A DNA stretch of 43,075 bases from an uncultured Aureimonas sp. (GTDB lineage Bacteria > Pseudomonadota > Alphaproteobacteria > Rhizobiales > Rhizobiaceae), in contig NZ_CAJYIU010000236.1 in the NCBI RefSeq assembly GCF_913775355.1, forward strand, positions 1 to 43,075, read 5' to 3'. Shown one piece after another: positions 16,191-23,210 of the stretch (position 1 is its first letter; each line of letters opens with the position of its first letter). The translations under genes were made by a program, and so were the position numbers. Under the pieces are notes generated by a model, which worked only from the letters and a program-made list of their open reading frames with translations, searched no databases and was not told the DNA's origin.

Positions 16191-19100
16191 ATGTCGAAGA
16201 TCAAGACGGCTGAACAGCTATCGGACGAAGCAGTCACCGAGCTGGAGGCGGCGCTTCAGGACACGGATTTCCTGGGCTCCGACCCCGAGCAACCGCAGGT
16301 GAGCGGTACGGCCGAGGGGCATGTCGAGAACGACACGCTGGCCGCGTCCGAGATCAACATCGAATTCGCCCTGAACGAGTTCGACCGCTCCGTCGAGGAG
16401 GCGACCAGCGCCCTGCGCGAGGAAAGCGCCGTGATCCCGGCTGCGCCGTCCGAACCGCCTGCCACTGACGCAGACGTTCCGCCCGAGCCGGACTTCCAGA
16501 TCGCGGAGGAGGAACTCATCGCCTCTCTCGGCGAAATCGAGCGCGTCGATCCGCCCGCCGCCTCCGATCGCCTCGGAAGCGCCGTGCCGCCGGTCGCCGC
16601 GGCGATCGCTGCCGGGACCGCCAGCACCGCCGCTCAAGACGCCCCTTCCGCCCCGCCCGTCCGCCGAGAGGCAACCGCGAAGCGACCCGAGCCTGCCGCC
16701 GCTCCCGAGCCCGTGCGGCCGTCCCGAACGCGGGACTTCAAGGCGAGCGTCGCCAATGACGAGCAGCGTTCCGCAGCGGTTCGTGCCGACGCCCTTCTCA
16801 CCCGCCGTTCGTCCCGCCGCACGCTGGTCATCGGCGGTGTCGTCGCCGCAGCCTGGGCCCTTCTAGCCGGTGCGGCGTCCTTTGCCTTTATCAGCGCCGG
16901 CAGTTCGCCGGTTCCCGAGGGGCTGACGCTGTCGCTTGCCGCGTTGGCCGTGGTGCTCCCGGCCCTCCTGATCATGGCCTTCGCCGTGATGGTGCGCCGC
17001 TCGCAGGACCTCCGTCTGATGAGCCGGTCCCTCGCCGAGGTCGCGCTGCGACTGGCGGAACCGGAGAGCATCGCCGCCGAGAAGGTCGCCAGCGTCGGCA
17101 ACGCCATCCGCCGCGAGGTTGCGGCGCTCGGCGAGGGCGTCGAGCGCGCGCTGTCGCGAATGGGCGAACTCGAGGGCATCGTCCACAACGAGGTGTCCTC
17201 GCTCGAACGCGCCTACGCCGACAATGAGGTCAAGATCCGCTCGCTCGTGACGGACCTATCGTCCGAGCGTGAGGCGATGCTCAGCCATGCGGAAAAGCTC
17301 CGCTCGTCGGTGGTCGGCTCGCACGACCGGCTGATCGGTGACGTCGACACGGCTTCCACCCGCATCATCCAGCAGGTCGAAGAGGCGACGCAACGCTTCC
17401 ACTCGCTGCTCGACGAGCGCGGTGCCGCGCTGTCGCAGGCCTACGAGGATCGCAGCCAGGCGCTGACGGCCATGTTTGACGCTCGCAGCCGCGAGATCGA
17501 GAGCGAACTCACCGGCAGCAGCACCGCCGTCATCCAGCGCATCGGCGAGACCGCCGAAGAGACTACCCGGCGCCTGGCGCAGACCGGTGAAGAGCTCGCC
17601 CTCTCCCTGCGGGCCCAAGCCGAAGAGCTTCAGGCTCGCTCCGACGAGCTGGTTCAGCGCGTGTCCTCGATCAGCGAGGACGCGGGCGAGCGCCTGCGTC
17701 AGTCGAATGAGGTCGTCCTGCGCCAGCTGGCCGAGCGGACGGAGAACCTCGCGACCGGCTCGGAGACCTTCGACCGCCGCCTGACGGAAACCCTCGACGA
17801 ACGCTCCGCTCGCATGATCGGCGAGAACGAGGCTCTCATCGCTTCGCTGACCGCCGGTCTCGACCAGCGCCTGACACATCTGGCCACGGAGACCGAGCGC
17901 CTTCTCGGCCGTCTCGACGAAGCGTTCGACAGCCGCATCCAGAATGCCACAGCCCTCCTCGGCTCGCGCAACGACGACGTTCTCGGCCGCTTCGACGAAC
18001 GGCTGGCGCAGCTGGAAGCCGCGCTGTCCGGCAAGGGCGCCCAGCTCGTCCAGACCATCGAGGGTCAGGCGCAGGCGATCGATCGCACGGCCGATCGACT
18101 GGCTCTCACGCTCTCCGAAAGCTCCGGCAGCTTCGCACGTACCGTTGCCGAGCGTGCCGACGAGATCCGTCACGCCATCGACAGCGGTCGCGAGGGGCTG
18201 ACCGCAGCCGCCGAGAGCGCCCGGCAGGGGATCGACGCCAGCTTCGCCAATCATTCCGATCACGTGCGCTCGACCTTCGATGCCCAGATCGGCTCGCTCG
18301 GCGCCGTCCTCAGCGACCGCGCTGCCGATATCGACACGTCGCTCGCTTTCGCCCAGCAGACGCTCCTGGCCCAGTTCGAGGAGCGCGGAAGCGCCCTCAC
18401 CCAGTCAATTGAAAGCAATGTCGCCCGCATGGAGGCGATCATCGGCGGCGCGGAAGGTCGGATGGTCTCCGGCGTCGCAGAGCGCGCCGAGAAGCTCGAG
18501 GCGGCGCTAGCCGCCGCCGATACGCAGGCCGACGACCGGTTCCAGACGCGCCTCGATCGCATGAATGCCCTTCTGGCCGAGCGTGGATCGGCGATCGAGG
18601 TCGCGATCGACCAGCGCACGCAGCTCCTCTCGAATGAGTTCGAGACGCGTCTTGCGTCGCTTGACCGCCTGCTGGCCGACCGCACCGAGCGGTTCGTCGC
18701 CGACTTCGACGAGCGCAACGAGACGCTGACGACCGGCCTCTCGGATCGTATCGCAGCCAACGAAGCCTTCATGCGCGACAGCGGCGAGCGCCTGTCCATG
18801 TCGCTCGATCTCTACACCTCGCGCGTCGGTGACGACGTCATCGGGCGTTTGGAGGCGGCCCTGATGATGGGCGACGATCGTCGCCAGGAGTTCCTCGCCA
18901 ACCTCGAGACCCGCACGGCCGGGATCGAGGCAAGCTTCGAACAGTCCGTCGAGCGCGTGGTCAACGATCTTGCGCTGCGCGTCCGCGAACTGTCGGACAC
19001 GGTCGACGCGTCGCATCAGGGTCTGACCGCGAACCTCGACGAGCGCACCGCTCGCTTCGCCCGCGACATCGACCACAACGCGGGGACGGTCCTGTCCGCG

Positions 19101-22100
19101 GTCGAGAACGCCTTGTCGCTCCTGATCCAAGGGCTCGACAGCCGTGGCACCTCGCTGCGCGATGCCGTGGAGAACGCCCGTGGCGCCATCCTCGACGGAC
19201 TCGACGAGCGCATCCTCTCGATGCGCCAGATGGTCGACGCCTCGGAAAGCTCGCTGATCTCCGATCTCGACGAGCGCACGACCCGGCTCGCTGCCACCCT
19301 CGACGGCGGCAACGCAACCATCCTCTCGACGCTCGAGACCCGGATCACCGCGCTTCGCCAAGCGCTGGTCGAATCCGACGGCCTGCTGGCGACCGCGATG
19401 GACGAGCGTCGCGACAACCTCACCTCCGCGATCGAGGACGTCGCCGGCTCGTTGGCCGCCACCCTCGGTGACCGCGCCGATGACGTGCGCCGCGTGCTGG
19501 AACAGAGCGCCGGCAACGTCACGACGGCTCTCGAGACCAAGCGCGAAGAGATCGTCGCGGCCCTGGCTGCCGGCACGGTCAGCCTCGCCGCCGCCGTCGA
19601 CGAGCGGACCAACGCCATCACGGAAAGCCTCGAGCGTGGTCTCGGCAACGTCGAGCGCACGCTCTCCGGCCGTACGGCACTGATCGCCGACACGCTGCGC
19701 GAGTCGATCGTGGCAGCCTCTACCAAGATGGGCGAGGAAGCCGACCGTGCCCGCGCCGGGCTGGAAACCGAAACCCAGAAGATCGCCATCATCATCGGCG
19801 AACTCGGCTCCACGTTCCGCTCGTCGTCCGCCGAGGCCCAGGCCGAGTTCGTGGCCGAAGCCGGACGCTTCGAGGAGCGCATCAAGGCGGTCGTCCAGTC
19901 GGTGCAGGAGACGAGCCTGACGGCACGCGACGAACTGACGGGTCAGAGCGCGCAGATCGCCGAGGGCATCGTCCTGTCGGCGGAGTCGATCCGTCGCATC
20001 GGCCAGGAAGCGCAGGAGCGTTTCGCCGCCGAGGCGCAGCAGCTGGGCCGGCAGGTCACCGACGTCGCCGGGCGCATGCGCGCGGATGCCGAGGAACTGC
20101 GAGAAGCGCTGGCCCTCGAAGGCGACGCCTTCACCACGCAGATCGGCGGCGCTTCGCTGGCCATGCGCAGCGAGGCCGAGGCGGCCCGCGAGCGCCTGTC
20201 GGAGGTCGCAAACGAGTTCGCCGGCGGTCTCGAAGCCATGGCCGATCGCCTGCGCCAAGACGCCGAGGCGGCTCGCCAGATCGTTCAGGATCAGGCGCAG
20301 TCCCTCTCCGGTGACATCACCGACGCATCGGACAGGCTGCGCCTTATTGGCGACCGGACCCGCGAGCAGTTCGCGACCGACGCCGCGCAGATTCGCGAGG
20401 AAGTCGCGGCTGCCGCGTTGCAGGTGCGCGAGCAGTCCGATGCGCTCCGCCGCGAGGTCGCGGAACAGACCGCCGCGATCGGCGCCGAGTTCACGGACGC
20501 GAGCGGGCATCTGCGGGAAGCGGGTGAGCAGTCGCGCCGCAACCTCCTCGACGATGCAGGTCGCATCACCGGCGAGGTCGCCCGCGTCGTCGAGGCGATG
20601 CGCGGCGAGACGGACCGTGTCCGCGAGCGGATCGGCGAGACGGCCGGGCAGATCGTTGCCGAGCTTACCGGCGCGACCGATCGCTTCGAGGCGAGCTCCG
20701 GCGACGTTCGCGAGCGCTTTGCGGCCGATGCCGCGCGGGTCGTCGGCGAGATCGACGCCGTCGCGTCGTCGATGTCCGAGCAGGCCGAGGGCGCCCGTCA
20801 TCGCTTCCTGGCCGATGCCGAAAGCTTCGCCGAGCGCGTTCGCGGTGCATCGACGCTGATCCGCGACGAGACCGGCCGCAGCGTGTCGCTTCTCGGCGAG
20901 CGGGCCGATGGTTTCGTCGGGGAACTGGCGACCTTGTCCGATCGTCTGGCGACGCTTCTCTCCAACACGTCCGGTGGCCTCAACGAGAGCCTGTCGCGGT
21001 CGATCATGGACCTTCGCGCCGAGATCGATGGAACGTCGGAGAGCATCCGCAGCGACATCCTCTCCGTGGCGGCCAACATCCGCGACGAGACGGCCCATGT
21101 CTCCGGCGAAATCCTGCGCGAGGCCGAGCAGGCCCGCACGGCGCTGAGCGCCGAAGGCTCGCAGGTCGTGCTCGGCCTGTCGGCCGCCGCGACCGCGCTG
21201 CGGCTCGAGGCCGAACGGGCCCGCGACCAGATTGCCGAGATCACGACCGGTTTCGGTGCCGAGATCGCCGATCGTGTCGCCTCCTCCGAGCGCGACCTGT
21301 CGGACAGCTCGGACCGCGTCGCGGAGCGCTTGGCCGAGCGCACCCGCGCCCTGTCGCAGATCCTGGCCGACCGCAACGCTGAACTCGCCAACCTCATCGA
21401 AACGCGGACGCAGCCGATCGTCGACGCGCTGTCCCAAACCGGCACGGCTGCGATCGAGGCTTTGGAGGGAACGTCGGATCAGGTCGCCGAGCGCCTCCGT
21501 GCCGAGAACGCGGCTGTCGTTGCGGACTTCATCCAGCGCACGGAAGAGCGCGTCCAACGCCTCAGCCGCTCGTCGTCGGAACTGATCTCCGCCCTTGACC
21601 TTCGGTCCGAAGAAGCGGCGACCCGCGTATCGAGCATGCAGGGCCAGTTGGGCCAAGAAATCACTCAGCTCCTCGATCGTCTCGACAACAGCAACGAGAC
21701 CCTGCGCACGATGCTGGAGGATGCCAGCGGCTCGATCGGCCGCGTGGAGACTTCGCTCATCGACACCCGGGACCGCTTCCGCACCGAAGCGCTCCGCCTC
21801 GAAGACGAGATCACCTCGTCGTCCGACCGTCTCGAGCAGTCGATCGCCCGCATGGACGGCGTCACGTCGACGGCCTTCATGCAGATCGGCGGCATGACCG
21901 AGAAGTTCGCCGAGCATGGACGCCTCCTGTCCGATGCCGCGCGTCTTCTCGACGAAACGCAGACCAATCTGCAGGCGACGCTGGAAGAGCGCCATGAGGG
22001 GCTCACGCTCCTCGCCGGCACGCTGGCCGACCGCTCGCGGGACATCTCGACCACCCTCAATTCGTTCGAGGGTGTCGTGGATCGCCTGTTCTCCGAGGCC

Positions 22101-23210
22101 GAGGCTCGGGCTCGCGCCGTGGCCGCGACCGTCAACGGCGAGCTCGGCTCCAGCCTCGGCGAAGCCGAACAGCAGCTGGAGGAGACCGAGCGTCGCTCGC
22201 AGGCAGCTGCCGAGCAGATCCGCGAGGCTCTGCGCTCGGTGATTGAGGAAGCGTCCGAGAAATTCGCGGGGGCGACGGCCGATATGCGCCGCGCCGCCGG
22301 GGACATGCGACGCGAGTTGGAGACGGCCCGCACGGAAATCCGCCGCGGCGTCTTCGAACTACCGGAGGAAACCCGCGAGAGCACGCGTGCCATGCGTCGC
22401 GCGGTGTCTGACCAGATCCGCGCGCTGCGCGAACTGAGCGACATCGTCTCGACGTCGGGCCGCGCTCTCGATGTTCGCAAGCCGTCCACCGAGGATCGCG
22501 GCACCCGCGCTGCGCCTGCTGCCGAGGTGGAGCGCCGCGCTGCATCGCCGGCTGTCGGCGGAAACCTTGCCTACGACGTACGCGGCAATGCCGAAGGGTC
22601 GCGGATGCTTGCATCCCAGCCGACCGCCGCTCCGGTCCAGCCTGCCCGGTCCGGCGAGTTCTCGCCGCTTCGTCCGGCCGCTCCGGCTTCTGCATCTGCG
22701 ATCCCCGCGCCGACCAACCCGGCCGCTCATCAGGCGGCGGGTGATGGCGATGGCGGATGGGTGTCCGACCTCCTGCGTCGCGCTTCGCAGGATGAGGACG
22801 ATGCACCCGAGGCGCCGGTGACGACGTCGGCACCTGAGGCCGCCCGTGCGGAGCGCAGCCAGGCCCACGTCGTGGACTCGCTCAACTCGCTGTCGGTCGA
22901 TATCGCCCGCGCCATCGATCACAACGTCTCGGTGGAACTCTGGGACCGCTACCGCAACGGCGAGCGCAACGTCTTCACCCGTCGTCTCTACACGATGAAG
23001 GGCCAGCAGACGTTCGACGAGATCCGTCGCAAGTATCAACGGGATGCCGACTTCCGGCACGCCGTGGATCGCTACATCGCGGACTTCGAATCCCTGCTGC
23101 AGGACGCGTCCCGCCGCGATCCCGACAACACGCGGAGCAAGTCGTACCTGACCTCGGACACGGGGAAGGTCTACACGATGCTTGCGCATGCCTCCGGGCG
23201 CTTCGACTGA
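16191..23210 (+). CDS. gpr: Giant coiled-coil membrane protein, growth pole ring (GPR/RgsE)-like
   Basis: A 2339-residue protein, the largest gene here. An acidic N-terminus (1-200) with a motif INIEFALNEFDRSVEEAT is followed by two transmembrane helices at 211-235 and 246-268. Then comes about 1820 residues of heptad-like coiled coil of apolipoprotein A type (270-2095), a Pro/Ala linker (2096-2226) with WVSDLLRRAS at about 2190, and a compact C-terminal domain (2227-2339). The rod has degenerate repeats: LDERT..L..TL units in the first half, EAE.AR.RL..EA units with longer periods around 1190-1690, then LAERTRAL units again. This architecture matches GPR of Agrobacterium and RgsE of Sinorhizobium, essential for a ring at the growing pole. 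Codon use looks like that of its neighbours. Confidence 0.88.
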   Translation: MSKIKTAEQLSDEAVTELEAALQDTDFLGSDPEQPQVSGTAEGHVENDTLAASEINIEFALNEFDRSVEEATSALREESAVIPAAPSEPPATDADVPPEPDFQIAEEELIASLGEIERVDPPAASDRLGSAVPPVAAAIAAGTASTAAQDAPSAPPVRREATAKRPEPAAAPEPVRPSRTRDFKASVANDEQRSAAVRADALLTRRSSRRTLVIGGVVAAAWALLAGAASFAFISAGSSPVPEGLTLSLAALAVVLPALLIMAFAVMVRRSQDLRLMSRSLAEVALRLAEPESIAAEKVASVGNAIRREVAALGEGVERALSRMGELEGIVHNEVSSLERAYADNEVKIRSLVTDLSSEREAMLSHAEKLRSSVVGSHDRLIGDVDTASTRIIQQVEEATQRFHSLLDERGAALSQAYEDRSQALTAMFDARSREIESELTGSSTAVIQRIGETAEETTRRLAQTGEELALSLRAQAEELQARSDELVQRVSSISEDAGERLRQSNEVVLRQLAERTENLATGSETFDRRLTETLDERSARMIGENEALIASLTAGLDQRLTHLATETERLLGRLDEAFDSRIQNATALLGSRNDDVLGRFDERLAQLEAALSGKGAQLVQTIEGQAQAIDRTADRLALTLSESSGSFARTVAERADEIRHAIDSGREGLTAAAESARQGIDASFANHSDHVRSTFDAQIGSLGAVLSDRAADIDTSLAFAQQTLLAQFEERGSALTQSIESNVARMEAIIGGAEGRMVSGVAERAEKLEAALAAADTQADDRFQTRLDRMNALLAERGSAIEVAIDQRTQLLSNEFETRLASLDRLLADRTERFVADFDERNETLTTGLSDRIAANEAFMRDSGERLSMSLDLYTSRVGDDVIGRLEAALMMGDDRRQEFLANLETRTAGIEASFEQSVERVVNDLALRVRELSDTVDASHQGLTANLDERTARFARDIDHNAGTVLSAVENALSLLIQGLDSRGTSLRDAVENARGAILDGLDERILSMRQMVDASESSLISDLDERTTRLAATLDGGNATILSTLETRITALRQALVESDGLLATAMDERRDNLTSAIEDVAGSLAATLGDRADDVRRVLEQSAGNVTTALETKREEIVAALAAGTVSLAAAVDERTNAITESLERGLGNVERTLSGRTALIADTLRESIVAASTKMGEEADRARAGLETETQKIAIIIGELGSTFRSSSAEAQAEFVAEAGRFEERIKAVVQSVQETSLTARDELTGQSAQIAEGIVLSAESIRRIGQEAQERFAAEAQQLGRQVTDVAGRMRADAEELREALALEGDAFTTQIGGASLAMRSEAEAARERLSEVANEFAGGLEAMADRLRQDAEAARQIVQDQAQSLSGDITDASDRLRLIGDRTREQFATDAAQIREEVAAAALQVREQSDALRREVAEQTAAIGAEFTDASGHLREAGEQSRRNLLDDAGRITGEVARVVEAMRGETDRVRERIGETAGQIVAELTGATDRFEASSGDVRERFAADAARVVGEIDAVASSMSEQAEGARHRFLADAESFAERVRGASTLIRDETGRSVSLLGERADGFVGELATLSDRLATLLSNTSGGLNESLSRSIMDLRAEIDGTSESIRSDILSVAANIRDETAHVSGEILREAEQARTALSAEGSQVVLGLSAAATALRLEAERARDQIAEITTGFGAEIADRVASSERDLSDSSDRVAERLAERTRALSQILADRNAELANLIETRTQPIVDALSQTGTAAIEALEGTSDQVAERLRAENAAVVADFIQRTEERVQRLSRSSSELISALDLRSEEAATRVSSMQGQLGQEITQLLDRLDNSNETLRTMLEDASGSIGRVETSLIDTRDRFRTEALRLEDEITSSSDRLEQSIARMDGVTSTAFMQIGGMTEKFAEHGRLLSDAARLLDETQTNLQATLEERHEGLTLLAGTLADRSRDISTTLNSFEGVVDRLFSEAEARARAVAATVNGELGSSLGEAEQQLEETERRSQAAAEQIREALRSVIEEASEKFAGATADMRRAAGDMRRELETARTEIRRGVFELPEETRESTRAMRRAVSDQIRALRELSDIVSTSGRALDVRKPSTEDRGTRAAPAAEVERRAASPAVGGNLAYDVRGNAEGSRMLASQPTAAPVQPARSGEFSPLRPAAPASASAIPAPTNPAAHQAAGDGDGGWVSDLLRRASQDEDDAPEAPVTTSAPEAARAERSQAHVVDSLNSLSVDIARAIDHNVSVELWDRYRNGERNVFTRRLYTMKGQQTFDEIRRKYQRDADFRHAVDRYIADFESLLQDASRRDPDNTRSKSYLTSDTGKVYTMLAHASGRFD

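Follow-up and report, generated by a model that had tools for sequence, protein, structure and literature searches.

The analyzed stretch of DNA from an uncultured Aureimonas (43,075 nucleotides, hereafter the window) contains a gene for a very long protein, the parts of which are listed in Table 1. The reading frame, the length of the product, the two membrane helices, the rod of about 1820 residues and the separate C-terminal domain had all been described from the letters of the sequence without database searches (the sequence-only reading), and all were confirmed. The rod spans residues ~273 to 2093, has a net charge of -119 and contains 0.6% lysine, and P1742 is its sole proline from residue 292 to 2057. 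Searches of the whole protein against Pfam returned Apolipoprotein (PF01442), plus two weak matches under the cut-off, and NCBIfam provided no family for it; six relatives from outside the order (Rhizobiales) had weak NCBIfam hits far below the cut-off. A single short tandem array was detected in the DNA of the gene, which indicates that the units of the rod have diverged at the DNA level. Antisense to the rod lies an open frame of 1162 codons (window positions 18507-21995, minus strand) that is probably a by-product of high GC content and repeats.

Table 1. Features of the gene and of its product in the window.
Feature	Window position	Strand	Evidence or remark
GPR/RgsE orthologue gene	16191..23210	+	2339 aa from an ATG start, uninterrupted by stops
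Two membrane helices, within residues 210-272	16818..17006	+	Hydropathy
Conserved N-terminal rod collar, residues 286-385	17046..17345	+	Conservation over 117 sequences; collar profile
Zone 1, 11-residue lattice, residues ~386-1165, period 3.66 = 11/3	17346..19685	+	Periodicity
Zone 2, thirteen contiguous 29-residue units, residues 1166-1542, period 3.625 = 29/8	19686..20816	+	
Zone 3, mixed spacing, residues ~1543-1780	20817..21530	+	
Stray 29-residue unit in zone 3, residues 1656-1684	21156..21242	+	
P1742, mid-rod proline	21414..21416	+	In 78% of 117 aligned relatives
Rod-end collar, conserved, residues 2015-2095, contains P2058	22233..22475	+	P2058 in 99% of 117
Proline-rich linker, residues 2096-2222	22476..22856	+	
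C-terminal domain, residues 2223-2339 (117 residues)	22857..23207	+	Seven predicted helices, no solved relative found

The N-terminal and C-terminal parts of the protein both matched RgsE of Sinorhizobium meliloti. Specifically, RgsE shared 41% identity with the N-terminal collar of the window protein (E 1e-47), 52% with the rod-end collar (E 3e-26), and 75% with the C-terminal domain (E 2e-58). The S. meliloti gene used for this comparison (locus L264) was taken as rgsE because its product has exactly 2089 aa, the published length of RgsE (PMC7327166). In that record it is annotated as "kinesin", and the record itself (CP090106.1), labelled as plasmid pSymB of S. meliloti Ak57, has apparently chromosomal gene content (the folP region, rgsE, and petA). 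The order of the genes in S. meliloti (response regulator, FliO, phosphatase, YcjX, YcjF, folK, folP, DUF922, 2Fe-2S protein, and rgsE) is also that of the window, except that a hybrid kinase stands in place of the response regulator, the FliO-like match sits just under its cut-off, and the Hpt gene of the S. meliloti neighbourhood is missing. The sequence-only reading had recognized a protein of the GPR/RgsE type, and the identity to all three parts of RgsE together with the common gene order bore this out: sequence similarity and gene order show the gene to be the orthologue, in Aureimonas, of GPR/RgsE, the scaffold of the growth pole. Two N-terminal membrane helices ahead of a ~1700-residue helical rod are the architecture by which GPR/RgsE proteins are recognized, and hydropathy revealed such helices in the window protein, ahead of its rod at residues 273-2093. 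RgsE and the window protein also have in common the great length of the helical rod, its PF01442 matches, a proline-rich stretch and a conserved C-terminal domain. On the other hand, the window protein exceeds RgsE by 250 residues and has the block of 13 units of 29 residues. Its likeness to GPR of Agrobacterium tumefaciens was drawn through the literature alone.

A small gene with an Hpt domain lies divergently upstream of the GPR gene at many loci (e.g., L264:11102-11470 and L265:5685-5978). Among loci whose upstream sequence covers 700 bases or more, with certain genomes present twice, it was found at 99 of 133 loci within the order and at 6 of 34 outside it, and its phosphorylatable histidine was retained in 91 of the 101 rows from the order. 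No divergent Hpt gene was found in the window or in its nearest relatives. The Hpt protein is a possible signalling partner of these scaffolds.

The hydrophobic residues of the rod follow a strong periodicity, with a power of 73.5 at 3.66 residues per turn over the whole rod (95% level of shuffled sequences, 6.8). None of 17 overlapping windows of 200 rod residues peaked at the heptad period of 3.5; their peaks lay between 3.57 and 3.67. The leading repeat lags were 11, 22, 33 and so on up to 121 at residues 273-1190, and 29, 58, 87, and 116 at residues 1190-1690. Across 60 units of the zone 1 lattice (residues 521-1180), two of the eleven positions were hydrophobic in 95% and 82% of units and two more in 33% and 28%; the strongly hydrophobic core stripe is narrow (2/11 positions). 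The 11/3 period of zone 1 would leave the supercoil very slight. Zone 2 resolved into 13 contiguous units of 29 residues plus one stray unit, and all 14 exceeded the 95% level of block-shuffled controls in a scan with a profile that was built from those same units. Among nine zone 2 units counted from residue 1195, four positions were hydrophobic in all nine, and arginine occupied two others in eight and seven. An undistorted helix has a period of 3.63 (PMC9858780), which the 29/8 (3.625) of zone 2 equals, and zone 2 should therefore be almost without supercoil.

The zoning that had been proposed for the rod was thus upheld, with 11-residue lags in its first part, 29-residue lags in the long-unit zone, and the exact units resolved, although the literal motifs by which the zones had been described are rare (LDER occurs 5 times, LAER 3 times, and EAE.AR 3 times). 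Two further details had to be corrected: the long-unit zone ends near residue 1542 instead of 1690, and zone 3 is not a return of the zone 1 units, its spacing being mixed and its periodicity peaks lying at 3.57-3.65.

Most of 40 relatives had periods near 3.66 in the middle of the rod, 3.61-3.62 behind the membrane helices, and 3.57-3.60 ahead of the linker. Lower periods were observed in three of them (L057, L058, and L059, 3.60-3.65) and in some short rods (L063, L079, and L080, 3.59-3.65). A clear 29-residue zone was present in all eight same-genus relatives and in four others (L053, L057, L067, and L074), at differing places, and was not seen in many others of the 40 relatives scanned. 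The 11-residue lattice is therefore common while the zoning is not, and the 29-residue zone is lineage-specific. Collars are conserved at both ends of the rod. A profile of the N-terminal collar (residues 205-385) matched 83 of 83 proteins from the order and 21 of 37 from outside it (E < 1e-3). At the other end, P2058 breaks the rod-end helix in an AlphaFold2 prediction (pLDDT 84.8, pTM 0.57), and the highly conserved C-terminal domain is predicted to form seven helices (pLDDT 84.7). Foldseek found no match to this fold in the PDB at E 0.001 or better (best 0.31), and the best E value in a sequence search for solved relatives was 0.084. In published work on Agrobacterium, GPR lacking its last 221 or 332 residues failed to complement (PMC8262873). 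In one same-genus genome the final 21 residues of the domain occur once more, ~220 bases downstream of the gene (G007:C23:230414-230476, 86% identity, E 8.7e-5).

The zones had been suggested to set the distances between the membrane and partner proteins at the pole. Such a molecular ruler would agree with the rod's length of ~270 nm if fully extended, which is comparable in order of magnitude to the ring of 200 nm described in print (PMC8262873), with the conserved collars at both rod ends, and with the persistence of the 29-residue zone in 8/8 same-genus relatives scanned. However, rod length ranges from 449 to 2380 residues across 83 proteins of the order and differs by tens of residues between close species, and the positions of the zones vary among lineages. 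As originally stated the suggestion found no support, the 29-residue zone being clear only in the genus and, at differing places, in a few other lineages, and a ruler with fixed zones was dropped. We regard a ruler as unlikely.

When the window protein was aligned with 20 same-genus relatives, five alignments were gap-free in the rod and gaps of 11, 22, 29, 44, 55, and 58 residues recurred in the others; gaps of other sizes exist too (e.g., 6, 12, 13, and 83 residues), some of them in neighbouring pairs. For a broader set we used 80 named loci minus seven (L105, L112, L119, L136, L139, L148, and L155) that were fragments, had an open 5' end or lacked a membrane helix. In three of those (L105, L112, and L136) the GPR frame is short (712, 72, and 705 aa from the chosen start) with the DNA continuing upstream, which reflects either a broken gene or a sequencing error. 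The 126 proteins were reduced to 117 distinct ones, and 81 of 116 tree-adjacent pairs were kept (at least 50% identity). These pairs yielded 204 rod indels, counted along the similarity tree and hence as events that are not fully independent, among which sizes of 11 (23 indels), 29 (23), 58 (10), 36 (10), 22 (9), and 18 (9) were found along with others. Indels shorter than seven residues made up 9 of the 204 in the rod, whereas the N-terminal region had 100 of 149 and the linker 112 of 144 in this size class. Per 1000 aa this amounts to 0.07, 7.15, and 9.23 small indels, respectively, i.e., the rod is depleted of them ~100-fold relative to its flanks.

Measured against a helical period of 3.635, the sizes of the rod indels were strongly coherent in phase (R 0.81, n=165), compared with R 0.31 (n=49) in the N-terminal region and 0.30 (n=32) in the linker. 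Restricting the analysis to pairs of at least 80% identity raised the rod value to 0.92 (n=41), with 32 of 33 sizes between 7 and 60 residues falling in the phase-preserving set. After repeated events were merged, 62 of 75 rod indels still belonged to this set (R 0.75), as did 10 of 28 in the N-terminal region and 6 of 18 in the linker, against 24% expected if sizes were spread evenly. The rod stayed at R 0.78-0.86 when four gap-cost settings were tried and in each of two clade sets. Phase coherence was also raised in the N-terminal region at 50-70% identity (R 0.48, n=28). An aligner artefact was ruled out as the source of the sizes, given that simulated random indels passed through the identical aligner came back unquantised (R 0.05-0.06). 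Inserted blocks resembled their neighbours with a mean identity of 0.62 versus 0.25, and 32 of 56 insertions, some counted from more than one neighbour, exceeded the 95% control level. Rod length thus evolves mostly as complete units of 11, 18, or 29 residues are gained or lost in tandem.

That many insertions copy their neighbours in tandem could also mean that the unit-sized indels are a mere mutational by-product of recombination between internal repeats, with no selection on register. This seems distinctly unlikely to us, since the 1-6-residue indels that predominate in the regions flanking the rod in these genes are nearly absent from the rod itself, and 24 of the 56 insertions did not rise above the tandem control. 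While duplication and deletion of units supply the changes in the rod, the near-absence of small indels points to purifying selection.

In the published account of GPR the rod is read as a series of amphipathic helices of apolipoprotein type, with a role in binding or sorting polar lipids, and deletions of these regions disturb cell shape (PMC8262873). The PF01442 match of the whole window protein is strong (E 2.7e-46, 158 bits against a cut-off of 90). Helices that lie on lipid surfaces can also show an 11-residue periodicity. However, when residues 851-1180 were shuffled within the eleven columns of the lattice, PF01442 still matched with E values of 1.5e-15, 1.5e-14, and 1.5e-11 (native, 1.4e-12), whereas none of three full shuffles of the same residues did. 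The match therefore reflects periodic composition and is no evidence of lipid function. Below its cut-off PF01442 also produced matches in 7 of 14 control genomes, and the hydrophobic stripe of the rod is narrow, its lysine nearly absent and its charge strongly acidic. Apolipoprotein homology was rejected by the lattice-shuffle control for the rod of the window protein, on which the control was run, and a lipid-sorting string of helices is in our judgement very unlikely.

The range of the family extends well beyond the genus. The C-terminal domain was detected in 61 of 61 genomes up to the level of order (own genome included) and in 244 of the 249 that represented the order in a sample, and its profile matched 112 of 289 genomes from a sample of the class, most of them (108) outside the order; distant RgsE homologues in two other orders had already been reported (PMC7327166). 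At least two N-terminal hydrophobic segments, by our own cut-off, were present in 31 of 37 proteins from outside the order. Two genomes of 0.9 Mb (L196 and L197) retain a short family member (642 and 670 aa) together with MreB. The rods from outside the order were mostly near a period of 3.57, with mean repeat lags of 25, 50, and 75 (34 rods), while those from within it (80 rods) had lags of 11, 22, 33, 44, and 29. Across the 83 rods of the order, the part with a period below 3.605 measured 209 +/- 47 residues at any rod length (slope 0.02). In contrast, stretches with a period of at least 3.64 scaled with rod length (slope 0.81), and the intermediate class rose little (slope 0.17). Windows at 3.64 or above made up at least 20% of every one of the 83 rods within the order, and more than 15% in only 3 of 36 outside it. 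These patterns suggest that the family began with a rod of 25-residue units, which the order then enlarged by adding units of 11 and 29 residues.

The sequence-only reading had named an occurrence of the protein outside polar-growing bacteria as evidence against it, and the data point partly in that direction. True MreB was present in 53 of the 54 genomes that were tested among the 108 out-of-order genomes with a match to the C-terminal domain; as the family is also class-wide, it is no marker of polar growth. Within the order, 28 of 249 genomes matched PF06723 with E values no higher than 1e-60. No true MreB was found in the own genome (98.72% complete), where the three PF06723 hits corresponded to Hsp70, FtsA, and a weak partial match of 28.8 bits; the frame scanned for this third hit (L011) gave no family. 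Elongation of the rod as compensation for the loss of the MreB cytoskeleton is in our judgement very unlikely. Rods of at least 1000 residues do occur in 0 of 18 MreB-bearing versus 46 of 60 MreB-less genomes of the order on the tree (from which five further Aureimonas rows were left out), but independent tree pairs lend no support: with the cut-off set at 1000, an average of 0.4 of 4 pairs followed the expected direction, and with 800 the trend was opposite in 1.6 of 4. Moreover, one clade contains seven members that lack MreB and yet have short rods (566-733 residues), and long rods coexist with MreB outside the order. The counts are suggestive and no causal link is claimed.

From the sequence of the rod, we infer a nearly straight, homo-oligomeric coiled coil. 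Taken as a whole, it is probable that the protein is a GPR/RgsE orthologue whose rod forms such a coil, locked in register between its chains, with a length that evolves by whole units. RgsE has been verified to be membrane-anchored with its rod reaching into the cytoplasm (PMC7327166), and the two N-terminal helices of the window protein would likewise anchor it in the inner membrane. The rod extending from them would consist of a long middle on the 11-residue lattice, a 29-residue block with the period of an unsupercoiled helix, and a segment of period 3.57-3.61 at the far end. Its length would change in units since other changes would break the phase between chains, and the conserved collars and the C-terminal domain may provide specific binding at the two ends. 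The rod may thus be an expandable spacer and assembly core rather than a lipid-binding apolipoprotein.

The register-locked coil can be compared with published deletions in GPR. Two deletions of 20 residues in the rod interfered when mixed with wild-type protein, one of them being the severest construct in the assay, while alone both formed paired foci and complemented partially or significantly (PMC8262873; the deleted regions are given as 21 residues in its abstract and as 20 in its results). At 3.635 residues per turn, a value taken from the helix period and not from the Agrobacterium sequence, 20 residues equal 5.5 turns and 21 equal 5.78, so that a deletion of 21 is likewise out of phase, by less. 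Because 20 residues add half a turn, mixed chains would meet by opposite faces and uniform chains would still pair, and interference in mixture with function alone appears to be what the register model predicts. Since one of the 20-residue deletions complements well alone, exact phase is not absolutely required.

TipN of Caulobacter crescentus (882 aa) has been called similar or analogous to GPR (PMC8546619, PMC13170164), i.e., its likeness to GPR is already in print (PMC8546619), and most out-of-order relatives found here have the plan of TipN; L193 (833 aa) is a candidate only. FilP and Scy of Streptomyces have heptad rods expanded by hendecads, and the rod of Scy, of more than 1000 residues, is almost all hendecads (PMC9858780). 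They resemble the window protein in being scaffolds of cell division or the pole with hendecad-expanded rods. They are, however, DivIVA-like proteins of another phylum, and the window protein has no Pfam DivIVA match; we propose convergence, not homology. By a term search, neither "hendecad" nor "11-mer" occurs in the main text of PMC8262873, the paper on GPR, and nothing on GPR/RgsE periodicity or unit-sized indels was found among the papers that searches of the open PMC library returned, a library outside of which most subscription papers lie.

About evenly poised, in our estimation, is the wider reading that GPR, RgsE, and perhaps TipN belong to one family of membrane-anchored polar rods throughout the Alphaproteobacteria. 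Its ancestral rods would have had 25-residue units, to which the Rhizobium-like order would have added 11- and 29-residue units, and its length would change almost only in register-preserving quanta as the chains form a straight in-register bundle, in a parallel to FilP and Scy that arose independently. If true, polar scaffolds of two phyla would be linked by a common structural solution. The rod of GPR has so far been read as apolipoprotein-like, and a register-locked coil is a different and testable account. It would explain the surprisingly strong effects of 20-residue deletions mixed with wild-type GPR, and deletions of 22 or 29 residues at those same places should be mild.
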